Notes under the pieces: model-generated
Told to the model about the DNA's origin: nothing
The model's input: the letters and a program-made list of their open reading frames with translations, nothing else
Database searches by the model: none
Shown here: positions 23,809 through 31,366 of the stretch, one piece after another
How positions within the stretch are numbered: position 1 is the first letter of the stretch
Layout of the letters: the number at the start of each line of letters is the position of its first letter
Source of the DNA: Nannochloropsis salina CCMP1776
Taxonomy: Eukaryota > Sar > Eustigmatophyceae > Eustigmatales > Monodopsidaceae
Length of the DNA stretch: 64,000 nucleotides
Assembly (NCBI GenBank): GCA_004565275.1
Contig: SDOX01000006.1
Coordinates: forward strand, 868,001-932,000
Direction of reading: 5' to 3'
Position numbers and translations under genes: made by a program

Positions 23809-24186
23809 GCTTGTCTGAGGTGGGTAAGAGACCCGGGCTCTGTTGAAGACGTCGCTCGGTAGTTCCCGTGACGGACTCGCAGGCTGCGGATGCTGTGCGA
23901 AATGATATCCATAGGGTTGTCAGACGAAGGCTCTAGAACCATCGACAACGCTTGCTCCTGCAACTGAGGAAGTGCTTGGAGTCCTCGCGCTCGACCCTTG
24001 CCTGGAAGACATTAGTGGGACTATACCCGGGATCACCGGCGCGACTCCTCAGGTCACACCGACTCGGAGCGCCGGCGACGCCCATGCTGCCCGACCTCCT
24101 CCCTAGGTCTCGTGACCCTAATACAACCCGTGACCACGTCTGCCTCATTCAGACCTCTTCCATCAAGCACAGACAACTTTCATTTC
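23809..24186. promoter_or_regulatory. Bidirectional promoter region, DCAF7 / ALKBH8-like
   Basis: About 380 bp separate the divergent start codons at 23808 (minus) and 24187 (plus). Both promoters must be here unless the ALKBH8-like gene has a farther 5' exon. The plus frame is open from 24112 but lacks an earlier ATG. Confidence 0.45.
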
Positions 24187-25230
24187 ATGCCATACTGCCC
24201 TTCGGTCCAATCCTCCGACACACTGTGCTTCCTGGGCGTAGGCATTAAGGGTGACGACGTCGCGAGGAGCGAGTGGGAGACGCGTTTTCGGTCACTTTTT
24301 TCGACAGACGCGGCTATCATTGCTGTTCAAATTCTTCCTGGGAAAACATATATGACATTTGATTCCATCAAAACAGCAGAAAAGGTCAGGCAGGAGTGGC
24401 AGGGTCGAGTGCTTCCACGTCGACTTTCCCGTCATCCAGTCACAGTCCTGTTCGGGCAAGCGTATGAGGCCAAAATTAATCCCGAGCCTGAAAATGTTCT
24501 TGTGGATCCTCTCGCAGACACCCTAACTCCTGCGACATGTCTTCCTAAAGGACTACAGCTTTTCATGTTTCTGAACGAAGCAGAGGAATCAGTGCTACTA
24601 ACCCTGCTTGACTCAAAGCAATGGGACAAGTCTGGTGTAACTCGGCGGACGCAGCACTATGGCGCGGCGGCTATCGATTTTCGATCTAGAAGCCTTGACA
24701 CAAAGCGACCTACCGTTCCAATTCCTATCCAATGTCGAGACTTGCTGGCGCGTGCACGGCGACAGCAACAGGCGTGCGGCGTTGCCTGGCCGAGCGGGCC
24801 ACTCGCCGATGCGAACGCTTCCTGCCTCGGCCGTGATCAGATGACTGTCAATGAATACCTACCAGGAGACGGCATTGCGGCCCATATAGATGCACATTCC
24901 TTATTCGAGGATGGACTGTTGATCATGTCGTTGGGAAGCGCTTACGTCATGGACTTTAGGGAACAAAGGCATAGCGATCTTCAGGACGGGGAAGCGGGCC
25001 CCCGATGCTCCTTGCTGCTTCCTCGGAGGTCTTTGCTTGTGCTGCAGGGGGAAGCTCGCTATAATTGGACCCATGGACTAGCTAGTCGCAAGACAGACAA
25101 AGTGAATGGCCGACTTGTCTCACGTGGGCGTAGGGTCTCGCTGAGCTTCCGGCGGTTGCGGAATGGCAATCCGCCCTTTTGCGAGTGCCTCTTCCCCGCC
25201 TCATGCGACAAAAGAATACCGGGAAAGTAG
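24187..25230 (+). CDS. ALKBH8: ALKBH8-like tRNA 2-oxoglutarate/Fe(II) dioxygenase (RRM + AlkB)
   Basis: A single-exon gene of 347 residues. Residues about 10-95 match the N-terminal RRM-like fold (DTLCFLGVGI; PGKTYMTFDSIKTAEKVRQE). Residues about 115-330 form the AlkB dioxygenase: GLQLFMFLNEAEESVLLTLL, MTVNEYLPGDGIAAHIDAHS with the HxD iron ligands, FEDGLLIMSLGSAYVMDF, LLPRRSLLVLQGEARYNWTH with the distal His, and RRVSLSFRRLR with the 2-oxoglutarate Arg. ALKBH8 hydroxylates mcm5U34 in the wobble position of certain tRNAs. The protein ends in a Cys-containing tail (FCECLFPASCDK) and lacks the C-terminal methyltransferase domain of animal ALKBH8, so methylation of cm5U would need a separate TRM9-type protein. 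The start is the first in-frame ATG; an extra 5' exon is possible. Confidence 0.85.
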   Translation: MPYCPSVQSSDTLCFLGVGIKGDDVARSEWETRFRSLFSTDAAIIAVQILPGKTYMTFDSIKTAEKVRQEWQGRVLPRRLSRHPVTVLFGQAYEAKINPEPENVLVDPLADTLTPATCLPKGLQLFMFLNEAEESVLLTLLDSKQWDKSGVTRRTQHYGAAAIDFRSRSLDTKRPTVPIPIQCRDLLARARRQQQACGVAWPSGPLADANASCLGRDQMTVNEYLPGDGIAAHIDAHSLFEDGLLIMSLGSAYVMDFREQRHSDLQDGEAGPRCSLLLPRRSLLVLQGEARYNWTHGLASRKTDKVNGRLVSRGRRVSLSFRRLRNGNPPFCECLFPASCDKRIPGK

Positions 25231-25877: not shown

Positions 25878-28580
25878 TTAGGAACTTTTGTAACGCCGCA
25901 TTTGCGTGAGGGCCTGAGCTTTAGGAACGCCGGGATAGAATTCTAGCAAGCTTGCAGAGGACATGATCAAGTCTTCCAACGAGGCGTGTCGGGAGCGACC
26001 GGGCTCCATGAAAACCACGCATCTCCGGTCTTCTTCCGCTTGGACCAAAAAATGTCGTATGTGCAAAGCCTTTGCCTTTTTTTCACCTTCCTCATCGTTT
26101 GGATGAATTTTGCGACTTTTGCCGACGAAGGAGAGAGAAAGAAGCCCTAGGTGGCTCGTGCTGAAACGGAATAGAAATGTACCTTCTTTGTACCCCTGAA
26201 GCAGGGCTTCTGTCTCTTTCCGCGATAAAAAGCCATGTAACAGCCGTGGCTTATTGCAAAGCCATTCCCTACATAGCAAAGCGATCGAGTTTTGCGCAGG
26301 GACCCAGCCCTCACAAAACACCGCAAAGTCCGTGATACGCACCAAATCACTCTCCGGCGTTCGAATGACTAATCGGTCTTTGATAAATTGAATATCTCCT
26401 GGCTCAAGGCCCCGAATGGTTCCCTCCTTATCCGCGATGGAAATAGTGGCTCCGTCAGCGACCTTGCTGTCCTCCTTTGTTTCAGATACTGCAGGCGGAC
26501 TGAAGGCTTTACTGCCCTCAGCGCCTCCATTCCCATTGGTGGAGCAATGCGTGGCGCAAAAGTCCTCGATATGGAATCGCGATAGCCTTAATGCATCGAT
26601 CAAGGCTTTGCGGAGCTCCTCTTGCAGCGCGTCGGTCAAGCGATACCAAGGAACTCCTTGGTGCATGCTTGACGACTGCCGAGCTCCGCCCTGTCGTACA
26701 ACCTCCAACCACAGGCGCTGAGAAGTAGGCTCTCGCAGGAACTGTCGAGCCTCTTCCGTTTCCCGCGCTAACGCCAGCGCATCTAATTCCCGCTTTTCGT
26801 CTCTCCCGTTCTCTGCACTGCTGATTCTCGACCCTCCTCCACCTCCTCCTCCTCCTCCTCCTCCTCCTCCTCCTCCTCCTCCTCCTCCTCCTCCTCCTCC
26901 TCCTCCTATGCCACTTTCCTCTTCCCCCATCGAGGGCGTGTCAACTTCCACAACCTGACTAGCATCCACGTAGCATTGCTTAGCTTTGTCGTACAAATCT
27001 TCCAACCGATGATCCTCTAGAAGAGGAGCGAACATGACGATCGCCTTTGGATGACCCCGCAGCTCTCGTATGACAGGAGAAGCTGCTAGTTCCGCGTACG
27101 CCTCCTCCCTCGTCGCATACGGCCTGCTCATCATCTCCTCCAAATCAAAGCCAGGCGGGGCGATGTTTGCAAGCATATGTGCGGTGGCTACATCAGACAA
27201 CGGTCCCAGGTGCACCACTTTCTCGGATGAGCTTTCCAAGCGCCCTGAACCGCTTCCCAAAACGGAGCCCTCCGCGGTGACGAGCAGATGGAGACCGTGT
27301 ATCCGCGAAAGCAAGTAGCTGAGGACTTGGACGAGGGAGTTGGAACGATTGAAGAAGCGATCTGGCCCATCCAACACCATGATAACGCGGCCAGAAGGAT
27401 GCTTATCCTGCAAAAGGAAGACGATCTCTCTCTCATTCGAAGCGTCCTCGAAGCCTATCGCCGCGCCGATCACCTTGCAGAGCGTTTCCTTCTCGTAAGA
27501 TCGATACTCTTTTCGGCGCAACGGAACCATATAAATAGCGTCGAATTGGTTGCGCTCGGCCAGGTACTGGCAGACCTTCGAGGCCAGGGCGGTCTTCCCT
27601 ACCCCCGGCCGGCCCCGCACAGTGATGCAGCGGTTTCCCTGGGAGACCATCGAGAGCAGTCCTATGACTTCTTGCGCTGCCACATTTCGCCCGACAAATG
27701 GGACAGGTGGGGGATCACACGTGTTAGGAACGGGAGGGGGCGATTCGTCTACGAACTCGCCCATCTCCGCGTCGTCAAACACGGCTAGGTCGTGCTCCCC
27801 GTCCGCCGGCAACAAGAGAAACTGCTCATCCTCTGACGAGACCCCCGTCTCTGTCACCGCTGCCGTGCTGGCTACTTCGAAGGCCTGCCGCACAGTCCGT
27901 CCCATGGCAATCGACAAATAGAAGAATTCGGCGAAAATGCAGGCGGCGCGGTCCGAGACCTTGGCGTCCCACTTCATTGCCACCACGTGCCGCACCCCCG
28001 CAGCGATGAAAGCTCTGCCGACTATTTCGGAATGCCGGGCGCTGACAAATACCAGCTGAGTCCTGACCCCTCCTGCTGCGAAGAGCTCAGTTAGGGTCTC
28101 AATGCTCAACACGTTGGTCTCTCCGACAGGTTTTTCTTTCTCGAATATCAAGCAGGACGGCTTGCCAATTCCCGTGTAGTGTAGCATCCGACACCCTATA
28201 GTTAAAAGCTTTCTGCAATTCTTCACAGTCGCAACTTCGGCACGAAAGAGAATGCGGCGTTGGGCATCATGAAGCGTATGTTTCAGCCGGCCAAGCTCTT
28301 GGCCTATGTCGATGTGCATCCCGTCCTGCATGTCCAACTCTTTGGCCTGCCCACCTGCCTTGTGCACCAAAGGGGCCGAGTATAAATATCCAAGTCGGCA
28401 GGGCGATAAAGGATCTCGAGTAGCCCCTCCAGAGTGCAGCGCGAAAGGAGGAGATCGGGAGGGTACATCCTGACTGGATGATGTCGGAAGCTGTGTGTGA
28501 CTTCCGTTGCCATTTACCTCCTTGGCTTTGGATCTTGCGGACTTGGCGTGGTGGCCGGGGAGGTGAAATCTTGCAAACAT
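25878..28580 (-). CDS. STAND NTPase with CHAT-like and SH2 domains
   Basis: An intron-less gene of 900 residues from an ATG at 28580. Residues 1-90 are disordered. Residues about 105-260 resemble a CHAT (caspase/separase-like) domain: MLHYTGIGKPSCLIFE, TQLVFVSARHS, AAGVRHVVAMKWDAKVSDRA, FFYLSIAMGRTVRQAFEVAS. The usual HxxGHG and LxAC motifs read HYTGIG and VSARHS, so the catalytic His and Cys appear replaced (Ile about 138, Arg about 182). Next is an NB-ARC-type NTPase: FVGR at about 295, Walker A RGRPGVGKT at about 322-330, Walker B GRVIMVLDGPD at about 397-406, and LRGHPKAI (the GxP motif) at about 507. A poly-Gly linker (about 558-583) comes from a CCT repeat. The C-terminus (about 785-890) is an SH2 domain closest to STATs: GFLSRKETEALL, GTFLFRFSTSHLGLLSLSF with the phosphotyrosine-binding Arg, and a final LLEFYPGVPKAQAL. 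It is likely a ligand-triggered, phosphotyrosine-linked signalling switch; the ligand is unknown. Confidence 0.8.
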   Translation of the reverse strand: MFARFHLPGHHAKSARSKAKEVNGNGSHTQLPTSSSQDVPSRSPPFALHSGGATRDPLSPCRLGYLYSAPLVHKAGGQAKELDMQDGMHIDIGQELGRLKHTLHDAQRRILFRAEVATVKNCRKLLTIGCRMLHYTGIGKPSCLIFEKEKPVGETNVLSIETLTELFAAGGVRTQLVFVSARHSEIVGRAFIAAGVRHVVAMKWDAKVSDRAACIFAEFFYLSIAMGRTVRQAFEVASTAAVTETGVSSEDEQFLLLPADGEHDLAVFDDAEMGEFVDESPPPVPNTCDPPPVPFVGRNVAAQEVIGLLSMVSQGNRCITVRGRPGVGKTALASKVCQYLAERNQFDAIYMVPLRRKEYRSYEKETLCKVIGAAIGFEDASNEREIVFLLQDKHPSGRVIMVLDGPDRFFNRSNSLVQVLSYLLSRIHGLHLLVTAEGSVLGSGSGRLESSSEKVVHLGPLSDVATAHMLANIAPPGFDLEEMMSRPYATREEAYAELAASPVIRELRGHPKAIVMFAPLLEDHRLEDLYDKAKQCYVDASQVVEVDTPSMGEEESGIGGGGGGGGGGGGGGGGGGGGGGGGGSRISSAENGRDEKRELDALALARETEEARQFLREPTSQRLWLEVVRQGGARQSSSMHQGVPWYRLTDALQEELRKALIDALRLSRFHIEDFCATHCSTNGNGGAEGSKAFSPPAVSETKEDSKVADGATISIADKEGTIRGLEPGDIQFIKDRLVIRTPESDLVRITDFAVFCEGWVPAQNSIALLCREWLCNKPRLLHGFLSRKETEALLQGYKEGTFLFRFSTSHLGLLSLSFVGKSRKIHPNDEEGEKKAKALHIRHFLVQAEEDRRCVVFMEPGRSRHASLEDLIMSSASLLEFYPGVPKAQALTQMRRYKSS
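26842..26907 (+). repeat. (CCT)n microsatellite encoding poly-Gly
   Basis: About 22 perfect CCT units, read on the minus strand as GGA/GGN Gly codons in the STAND protein between the NTPase and the SH2 side. It is in frame, so length changes alter only the linker. Slippage is expected. Confidence 0.9.
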
Positions 28581-29206
28581 AGGCTTTCTCGCCCTTTCCT
28601 ATACATGAAATGGTTGTGTGAGATGCATGTCCTGCCGAGTAGCCTCCCCTGGTAGCAGCGAGGCAGTGGCGAAACGGGGAAGTTGCGTGGGCGATGTGCG
28701 TGATGGAGGCCGAGCATGCTGGGGCGCCCCGCTGGATCTGCCAGGATACAATCGCCCGTCACGCGACGTGTCACGTGCCCGTGTTCCAGACACCGTCAGG
28801 GGCACATGTCTCATCTATTGCATGAAAAAATGCTCTAGCACTGTCTCGTCCTTTGGTATTTGGAGCTCGAGGTGGCGTCGCGTCGCATTCAGGCGGGTCT
28901 GACCACTCGTGCCATATCTGCTGTCGGAACGGCAGAGCCCGTCGCTCCTACCCTGCCTTTCTGCCTGTCACACGTATTGACACACTATTTTTCCCCTCTT
29001 GCAATAAAGTGCGAACTTACTTTACGCAGGAGTGTATCAGTGCAGCAGGCGCGTGCCCACTACATTTGGATAGAGAACAGGGCAAAGCAAGACCTCCTCC
29101 ACCTCCTCCTCCCCATCCTAGAGGGTGGTCTGTCCGATTGCCAAGCTGGAAACACTGTCAACTTATCAGATCCATTCACGTGTCGCGTTTGGACGGAAGT
29201 CATAAC
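28581..29206. promoter_or_regulatory. Divergent spacer, STAND gene / ABCG gene
   Basis: About 620 bp between divergent start codons. The plus-strand frame of the ABCG gene is open from 28853, but that part is Pro/Arg-rich and unlike protein, so I treat it as 5' UTR. Shared control of the two genes is possible but not shown. Confidence 0.4.
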
Positions 29207-31366
29207 ATGACAGGCACGTCCGACATCGAGCTCGGCAAACTGTGTAATGCGTCGTCTAACCTTAAACTCAGCGGGAGCGATGAAGGTCAAAATCGGAAAG
29301 GTTACGACGCATCAAAACCAAGTTCCGCGACATCATTGCGGTGGAATATCCGGAAGCTCAGCGTACCCATAAAAAGAAAGCACCTCGCCAGACTACAGGG
29401 CAATTTGGAATTCCTGGGTCAGCAACACGGTTCGGGACGCGATACCAATATGCCATTTCGAGGCAACGGGGGCGACGTCCTCACAAACAGTAGGGCGGGG
29501 GGTCGAGGCACCACGAGGGGTACCTCCATCAATGAGAGTCTAGGTAGTAAGACAGCAGAGCGGCACATTTTATATAATGTGGTCGGACACGCCGAGAAAG
29601 GGCAAATGTTGGCCTTGATGGGGGCGTCAGGAGCCGGCAAGTCATCTCTGCTTGATTGCATATCCCTGCGCAACCATCGCTTTGAGGGCTGCGTGTACTT
29701 GGATCGGAATCCGGTAGACACGCACTTTTTCTCGACAAGTGCGTACGTACATCAGGTGGACCTCTTTTTCGCGACACTGACAGTCCGAGAGCACCTGACC
29801 TTTCATGCCATGGTGCGTGTGAAGCAGGAAGTGCCGATCGCAGACCGTCTACGTAGAGTGGAAGAGGTAATCGACGCTGTCAATTTGACCAAGGTTGCTG
29901 ACTCCCTGATCGGCGGACCTCAAGCTTTCATCCGAGGCGTCTCGGGGGGGGAGCGGAAGCGCCTGTCCGTTGCGACAGAGCTCCTGTCGGACCCGGAGAT
30001 CATCTTCGCCGATGAGCCAACTTCAGGTTTGGACGCGTTCATGGCACTATCGGGTACGATAAATGAAAGATTACTGAGGAGAAAGAAAAATTTGCCCACA
30101 TATCATGACGGCATCATGAAATTTCTCATGTACGCATTTTAAATTCCAAATACAGTTTGCAAGATACTCAAGGGACTGGCTGACAGTGGGAGGCTGGTGG
30201 CATGCGTCATCCACCAGCCATCATCCGAGATATTTGAGCTTTTCACTCATCTGATGCTTCTGGCCAGGGGCCAGACGGCATATTTCGGTACGCGTGCAGG
30301 CGGTGTCGAATATTTCGCATCGATGCTTGGTCTCGAATGCCCGCAATTTTACAACCCGGCAGACTACCTGATCGAGAAGCTGGCGGTCAACGTGCTGTTG
30401 GAGAAGCCTGAAGTGGCTGTGGAAGATATGCTACGAGTATATCAGTCGTCGGAACTTGCGCGAGATAACGAGGCCTGGATGGCGGACGTGGAGGAGACCG
30501 CAGGTTCAGGAATGGGCGTGGCTGCTCTAGTTTCCAGTCGGGAATTTCCGGCAACGTCGTGGACCCAGTTCGTGGAGAGCTACAAGCGCACGGTCAAGTC
30601 CTACGGACGAGAGCCTGTGCTGGCTAAGGTCCGCTTGGGGCAGGCGATCTCGATGGGGTTGATATTGGGTTTGGTGTATCTGCAGCAGCCGTTTGATTCA
30701 AGTGCTACCAAGAACCGTCTGGGCGCCATGTTCCTGCTAATTATGAATCAAAGCATCGCATCCATGTTCACAGTTTCGCAAGTCATTCCCAAGGACATGG
30801 CTGTTTTTATGCGCGAGTATTTGACAAGCGCCAACCGACCATCGTCCTACTTCCTAGGCCTCTCTCTTGCAGAGGTCCCTTACCAAGTCCTTTTCCCCTG
30901 CATTTTCGGGTCTATAGCTTACTGGCTGATAGGTTTTGCACCAGAAGCGAGCCGATTTTTTATCTTCATCGTGACCCTAGTGCTAATGGCCAACGCGTCG
31001 TGCTCCCTTGGGTATGCTCTTTCCACTCTCACTGGTCATGATGGCGTAGCAGTGGCGCTGGGACCGGTTTTAATGTTGCCTATGAGTCTATATGCCGGCG
31101 TGCTGCATTCATCAGACCACGTTCCCTGGTACTTTGTGCCGTTGGACAAGGTTTCCATGATCAAATATGCATTTCAGGCTATTGTCCTAAACGAGTACGG
31201 TTCAGATAAGTACACACCGCAACTCCGCAACTTCGTATTCGAGTACATCGGCGTGCAGGAAGGGCAAATTGGCTTTTGTATTGCGATGCTAGTTGTGCTC
31301 CTTTTCGGATTCCGCTTCCTTGCTTACGTCTTCCTTCTAATTCGAGCAAAGCGAGCATTGATGTAA
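29207..31366 (+). CDS. ABCG-family half ABC transporter (NBD-TMD)
   Basis: Two exons (29207-30053, 30156-31366) give 685 residues. The 102-bp intron interrupts the nucleotide-binding domain just after the D-loop, and the join reads MALSVCKILKGLADSGRL in phase. Features: Walker A GASGAGKSS at about 139, Q-loop area TSAYVHQVDLFFATLTVREH, signature VSGGERKRLS, Walker B IIFADEPTSGLD, and the H-loop CVIHQPSSEIFEL. The NBD precedes the membrane domain, the reverse order that defines ABCG/White. About six membrane segments lie between residues 440 and 685 (QAISMGLILGLVYLQQ; IFGSIAYWLIGFAPEASRFF; IAMLVVLLFGFRFLAYVFLL). Half transporters work as homo- or heterodimers, usually exporting lipids, sterols or xenobiotics; the substrate here is unknown. 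The first 95 residues are basic and disordered. The start is the first ATG close to the conserved region. Confidence 0.88.

Follow-up and report, generated by a model that had tools for sequence, protein, structure and literature searches.

A conserved CHAT-STAND-SH2 protein without the CHAT catalytic dyad, and its dyad-bearing sister, in the alga Nannochloropsis salina

The gene and its domains

We analysed a gene in a 64,000-nucleotide stretch of the genome of the eustigmatophyte alga Nannochloropsis salina CCMP1776 (GenBank assembly GCA_004565275.1, contig SDOX01000006.1, positions 868,001 to 932,000 of the forward strand). The whole stretch is called the window here, and the gene and its product are the window gene and window protein. 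The gene sits in contig C72 (our label) of a genome of 26.5 Mb in 103 contigs, and encodes, on one chain of 900 amino acids, a CHAT domain, a STAND NTPase, a linker and an SH2 domain. It is a single open reading frame (ORF) of 900 codons on the minus strand, at window positions 25878-28580, with an ATG start and an in-frame stop seven codons upstream. An initial annotation, made from the DNA alone and giving no strand, had described one uninterrupted gene of 900 residues, and the ORF occupies exactly the positions it assigned. The delimitation draws on the ORF, on Pfam and on the alignment of relatives. A search with the whole protein returned four close relatives (P0001-P0004, 75-98% identity), which are collinear with it except in the variable N-terminal tail, the low-complexity spacers and a loop within the SH2 domain. 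Given this collinearity, an intron or two-gene artefact is unlikely, and we rejected the two-gene explanation.

Pfam was scanned with its curated cut-offs, and matches were considered up to an E value of 10. CHAT (residues 94-243, E 6.5e-8, 32.8 bits against a cut-off of 24), NB-ARC (303-525, E 5.4e-6), NACHT (318-469, E 1.9e-10) and SH2 (782-873, E 1.3e-9, 38.5 bits against 21) all scored above cut-off, in the order CHAT, NB-ARC, SH2 that the annotation had proposed. NCBIfam gave no match for the window protein, and the PADLOC 2023 anti-phage defence profiles (E 1e-5) matched no family in any of four proteins searched, the window protein among them.

A CHAT domain that has lost its dyad and stayed conserved

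The CHAT (caspase-like) domain covers residues 62-265 (27786-28397; all features of the gene are on the minus strand), as placed by Pfam, a PDB profile match and alignment. When an 18-row CHAT-STAND profile (A3) was run against the PDB, it matched 8tl0, a "CHAT domain-containing protein" (E 1.8e-13), and the GHG and NAC of 8tl0 pair with the GHG and SAC of the family. In Csx29, H615 and C658 are catalytic and the double mutant no longer cleaves (PMC10028731). By homology with 8tl0 and with these two residues, the His-Cys catalytic dyad is absent from the window protein: GHG has become GIG (Ile138, codon ATT, 28167-28169) and SAC has become SAR (Arg182, codon CGG, 28035-28037). Across the 18 rows, the His column holds His in 11, Ile in five, Gln in one (P0012) and a gap in one (P0016, whose model is without that part), and the Cys column holds Cys in 13 and Arg in five. 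The Ile/Arg rows are exactly the five Nannochloropsis-type ones, that is, the window protein and P0001-P0004. Because both residues are replaced in all five, while a sister gene described below retains them, the window protein probably does not work as a caspase-like effector. In this respect the annotation's interpretation is not supported as it stands.

Conservation was counted over the window protein, P0002, P0003 and P0004, in nine stretches whose bounds we set. P0001 was excluded; it is 98% identical to the window protein, differing in a shorter glycine run and a start at residue 72, and so probably comes from the same species and is not an independent row. Invariant columns number 9 of 57 in the variable N-terminal tail (residues 1-57, 28410-28580), 191 of 208 in CHAT (counted over 58-265), 24 of 27 in the junction, 219 of 253 in STAND, 19 of 75 in the low-complexity spacer, 43 of 48 in a Trp-containing segment without a Pfam match (621-668, 26577-26720), 7 of 53 in a second spacer, 41 of 58 in the linker and 79 of 121 in the SH2 end. 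Although its dyad is lost, CHAT is the best conserved of the nine (92% invariant, with STAND at 87% and the two spacers at 25% and 13%). Plain decay of the domain after dyad loss does not fit this pattern, as judged from the alignment.

One of the matched proteins, P0018 (1477 aa), reads as LRR-CHAT-STAND-Macro-like, with CHAT and Macro just under cut-off. By eye, its CHAT carries GYG and SAV, perhaps a second, independent dyad loss.

The STAND NTPase

The STAND (NACHT/NB-ARC) NTPase spans residues 293-545 (26946-27704), and Apaf-1 is the best NTPase match of profile A3 in the PDB (E 2.2e-9). Both nucleotide-binding motifs are intact: Walker A as GRPGVGKT (323-330, 27591-27614) and Walker B as VIMVLDGPD, within RVIMVLDGPD (398-407, 27360-27389). 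No LRR, TPR or WD40 Pfam match was found in the window protein at E up to 10, and the annotation's "receptor-type sensor" cannot be kept as stated, since that label then leans on the SH2 domain alone.

A candidate STAT-type linker and an SH2 domain

The chain ends in a candidate STAT-type linker (residues 722-779, 26244-26417) and an SH2 domain with a STAT-like end, FYPGVPK (780-900, 25881-26243); FLFRFS at 802-807 and EFYPGVPKA at 880-888 lie where the annotation had noted them. Nine linker-SH2 ends were aligned into a profile (A5), which we ran on 177,635 PDB sequences at E up to 0.1. Among the best 60 of its 195 matches, the first 21 are STATs (E 1.6e-11 to 2.1e-7), and the first non-STAT is HSH2D (E 2.5e-7). 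The alignments of STAT2 and Dictyostelium STATa start at profile position 5, which lies before the SH2 domain, in a stretch that we take to be the STAT linker. With an SH2-only profile, the 13 leading PDB matches are all STATs, and the E value of Dictyostelium STATa, 1.6e-5 there, becomes 4.3e-10 once the linker is included. The linker alone, in an alignment with four rows shortened by hand, is a weak match (eight PDB matches at E up to 10, headed by Dictyostelium STATa at E 0.24). By family profile, then, the C-terminus resembles a STAT linker and SH2 domain. With the window end alone, STAT6, STATa and STAT1 are present among the best 60 of 105 PDB matches; a control search with a different SH2 ORF from this genome (L002), as a single sequence, gave no STAT among the best 60 of 123.

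Four residues that presumably form the phosphotyrosine pocket are kept across the nine A5 rows: Arg805 (26166-26168) and Ser807 in all nine, and Arg787 and His843 in eight each. The predicted pocket is thus kept in the window protein.

SH2 scores above the Pfam cut-off at three places in the genome when introns are ignored, and the intron-split SH2 of the sister gene is not among them. The control ORF L002 (C52:826203-826340, plus strand) has, by eye, a linker-like stretch before FLVRFS and a TPR-like frame behind it; its best PDB matches are SH2B1, SHIP2 and SYK. At L003 (C1:165276-165434, plus strand), an SH2 (FLLRRYDE) stands in a frame right behind a Ras/Roc-like GTPase ORF, and the two are possibly one spliced gene.

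A dyad-bearing sister and a third family member

Two genomic places exceed the Pfam cut-off for CHAT: the window gene and a sister on the minus strand of contig C70. Read in successive frames, the sister has the same order: CHAT (GHG, SAC), GEAGIGKS, a VPWYRL segment, REWLCEAP, GTFLLRFSTSHLGLL and FYPDVPK. Its domains were assigned by the genome CHAT profile search and by motif reading in those frames. The gene is multi-exon, and a frame-continuity script left one solution for its first two introns. It shares 55% identity with the window protein over the CHAT-STAND core. A tree of 19 rows was computed from the window protein, the sister and P0001-P0017, with P0018-P0029 of the 29 matches described below left out; the window clade has 100% ultrafast bootstrap, and so does the window clade with the sister. 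Because the dyad-bearing sister groups with the window clade, the sampled rows place the loss of the dyad after the duplication. Introns split the sister, whereas the full length of the window gene is open, which suggests, without proving it, that the window gene is a retrocopy of a split sister; intron gain in the sister is the alternative.

Searching the genome at the protein level with the core of the sister yielded five places, including a third gene on contig C99 (L019/L020, C99:227870-228739, plus strand) with the order LRR-CHAT (GHG, SSC)-NB-ARC. There, LRR_6 is above cut-off, while CHAT (16.6 bits against 24), NACHT and NB-ARC fall below theirs, so the Pfam CHAT search missed it. ORFs of 120 aa or longer in the part of C99 that was read showed no SH2. 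We dropped the idea that the genome has only one NB-ARC gene, as two further STAND genes of the family escape the Pfam search.

The family across algae and prokaryotes

The nearest named relative of the window protein is from Nannochloropsis oceanica (75% identity), and a search with residues 640-900 returned the same four relatives as the whole protein. Residues 64-545 matched 29 proteins at E up to 10, in a search that scored only the 8000 candidates with the most shared words; a homologue of the sister is not among them. SH2 is marked in eight of the 29: P0001-P0004, P0005 (JGI), P0006 (Scytosiphon), P0008 (eukprot) and P0011 (Ectocarpus). Ten of the matches were rescanned with Pfam. Both CHAT and SH2 are above cut-off in P0005, P0006, P0008 and P0011, and among these four an NTPase model is above cut-off in P0005 only; the alignment shows a retained P-loop in P0006 and P0008; the P0011 model is without the P-loop stretch and has NACHT below cut-off. 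In P0016 (Chrysoparadoxa), Pfam finds CHAT, and only the alignment shows an SH2-like end. As CHAT and SH2 recur around the NTPase region in Nannochloropsis-type algae, the brown algae Ectocarpus and Scytosiphon, P0005 and P0008, we infer that this order marks a family and is not a chance fusion. The algal source that the initial annotation had given the gene is supported.

A scan of prokaryotes gave three relatives from 53 candidate stretches, one in an Anaerolineae metagenome-assembled genome (MAG) and two in Theionarchaea MAGs. In the Anaerolineae MAG, L013 reads EAD7-CHAT-NACHT/NB-ARC-TPR, and in a Theionarchaea MAG, L014 reads CHAT-NB-ARC-TPR, with every domain above the Pfam cut-off in both. 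We infer that the algal SH2 branch may be a CHAT-STAND core in which a TPR arm was swapped for the linker-SH2; the prokaryotic rows are MAGs. A scan of viral sequences with the linker-SH2 alignment gave no pattern that could be used.

Low-complexity runs and neighbouring genes

A run of 25 glycines lies inside the low-complexity spacer (26832-26906). The longest glycine runs in P0001-P0004 are 8, 7, 4 and 3, and repeat length probably differs among strains or assemblies (25 in the window gene, 8 in the 98% identical P0001). Divergent from the window gene, at 28853-31366 on the plus strand, lie two ORFs of an ABC transporter, the ATPase part followed by the ABC-2 membrane part, probably split by an intron. 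On the other flank, at 24112-25230 on the plus strand, is a 2OG-Fe(II) oxygenase, presumably of the AlkB-like class.

Interpretation

We tentatively propose, as a serious possibility, that the window protein belongs to an algal family that combines CHAT with a STAND NTPase resembling Apaf-1 and with a linker-SH2 of STAT type, and that this apparently dead copy is a non-cutting partner of the C70 sister. On the best reading of its role, it would be a pseudo-protease that scaffolds or regulates, works as a pair with an active sister, is switched by ATP and is positioned through phosphotyrosine. The SH2 domain would dock onto a tyrosine-phosphorylated partner, and docking together with ATP binding would let the NTPase assemble. 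In dyad-bearing members, assembly would draw the CHAT proteases together. The window copy, dead yet strongly conserved, would serve as a non-cutting subunit that either assembles together with the C70 sister or retains the sister's substrates, and may thereby limit, scaffold or direct it. This would be somewhat like cFLIP, an inactive caspase, in animal cell death. A bolder version, which we consider less likely, is a phosphotyrosine-gated one-chain "apoptosome" of ochrophytes, combining protease, Apaf-1-like platform and STAT-type reader, in which the Nannochloropsis-type pair would consist of a live protease and a dead but conserved partner by which it is licensed or braked.

Several observations weigh against the proposal of a paired, phosphotyrosine-placed regulator. 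The dyad-dead copy is known from Nannochloropsis-type algae only, and the pairing idea therefore draws on one genome. The sensor motif is TAE in the window protein and the sister, TSE in P0006, P0008, P0011 and P0012, TAC in P0005, and TSR in P0009, P0010 and P0013; given these differences, the ATP cycle may differ from that of Apaf-1. No STAT-specific Pfam family matches the window protein or the A5 rows, and Cbl_N3 matches weakly in three of the nine rows (best E 0.011). When the window sequence alone is run against the PDB, HSH2D (E 7.1e-5) and SHP-2 come ahead of STAT6 (E 7.6e-4). We consequently dropped the claim that this sequence is STAT-like on its own; the annotation's STAT-like SH2 stands for the family profile, where it reaches into the STAT linker, and is not specific for the single sequence. 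The Tyr/Ser-Thr kinase model has 135 genome matches, of which the best three, the ones examined, carry loops that we take to be of Ser/Thr type, and classical protein tyrosine phosphatase gave two fragment matches above cut-off, of 58 and 34 positions. The annotation had suggested dependence on tyrosine phosphorylation; this is read from the intact pocket, and in view of these matches it is not supported as stated.

The same kinase and phosphatase matches, and the small number of SH2 places in the genome, would suit an SH2 domain that reads no phosphotyrosine and instead binds phosphoserine, an unphosphorylated ligand or another subunit, wiring the protein to Ser/Thr kinases or to dimerisation; the pocket, each of whose four residues is kept in at least eight of nine rows, speaks against this, and we find it improbable. 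The annotation's NLR-like sensor, taken as a protein whose SH2 domain senses or autoinhibits, whose output is recruitment of other proteins through the CHAT fold and which does not need the sister, is somewhat less improbable, if still unlikely. Its SH2 would occupy the C-terminal place of the TPRs in P0009, P0010, P0017 and the prokaryotic L013 and L014, and the P-loop is intact. However, the window protein has no Pfam repeat domain and is without a known ligand, and a sensor leaves the retention of a dead and a live copy in one genome unexplained.

Two further explanations concern the CHAT domain itself. It might still be catalytic by way of a shifted residue pair; one candidate is His134, which is invariant in the 18-row alignment (P0016 is without that part, and the His aligned in it probably falls there by chance). 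In dyad-bearing relatives, however, His134 accompanies a normal dyad, and no Cys replaces position 182, which makes a shifted pair very improbable. Dyad loss and an unsplit frame beside an intron-split sister could also mark a decaying, functionless duplicate, but the invariant share of columns in CHAT and STAND, set against that in the spacers, led us to reject a decaying pseudogene, and the frames of the relatives, as deposited, are without stops; such a duplicate is barely credible.

Overall, what the initial annotation had observed is confirmed, and its interpretation is partly supported. What appears new is a conserved, apparently dead protease beside a dyad-keeping sister, on a domain order that is real, recurrent and unusual. 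In most known cases, STAND switches, caspase-like proteases and phosphotyrosine readers are separate proteins; three such modules on one chain, in an order that brown algae share, point to an undescribed signalling family. We know of no described phosphotyrosine immune pathway in this lineage. The two CHAT-STAND-SH2 genes found in the 26.5 Mb genome offer a concrete target for the control of algal cell death or immunity, and open the question of whether pseudo-proteases regulate such switches outside animals. Among 5.39 million papers searched, none contains both "CHAT domain" and "SH2 domain", and the titles and abstract openings given by our other literature searches included none with this domain order, in line with the annotation's statement that no named family has it; most subscription papers lay outside their coverage, and the novelty is provisional.

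Comparison with known systems

By family profile, the protein is like STATs in its collinear candidate linker and SH2 domain, its pocket residues and its YPxxPK motif. A C-terminal phosphotyrosine tail is a STAT feature, whereas the window chain stops 13 residues past FYPGVPK, with Tyr897 as the sole Tyr there, and is without a STAT-like tail of this kind; nor does it have a Pfam match to the STAT N-terminal, coiled-coil or DNA-binding domains at E up to 10. There are reports of plant proteins with a STAT-type linker-SH2, and our literature search for them turned up no such paper. The algal family would extend STAT-type linker-SH2 to ochrophytes, past the animal and amoebal STATs.

With the STAND NTPases of Apaf-1 and NLRs, the protein shares the P-loop, Walker B and a GxP motif, and Apaf-1 is its top PDB NTPase match. 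It differs from them in having no WD40 or LRR match, in the replaced sensor Arg, and in carrying CHAT and SH2 on the same chain. Compared with CHAT proteases, namely Csx29 (TPR-CHAT), 8tl0 and the fungal CHAT-NLRs, it has the CHAT fold by profile, but both catalytic residues are replaced. Some fungal NLRs bear an N-terminal CHAT, part of them beside gasdermin genes. A word search of two fungal CHAT-NLR papers found no SH2.

The metazoan TRADD-N NCOA6 clade offers another parallel. These are cell-death adaptors with a variable C-terminus, SH2 in some and caspase in others, although they carry Death-like and TRADD-N domains, and the passage that describes them does not name a CHAT-STAND-SH2 order (PMC8195603). 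Brown-algal NB-ARC-TPR candidate immune receptors (Zambounis 2012, as cited by other papers) belong to the same wider lineage and NTPase class and differ by their TPR arm. The prokaryotic L013 and L014, along with P0009, P0010 and P0017, share the CHAT-STAND core with the window protein, at 31-38% identity over the core for the last three and at 33% (L013) and 27% (L014) in the best segment. In contrast to the window protein, these five have a TPR arm in place of the linker-SH2 and, by reading, keep the dyad residues, and L013 adds an N-terminal EAD7.

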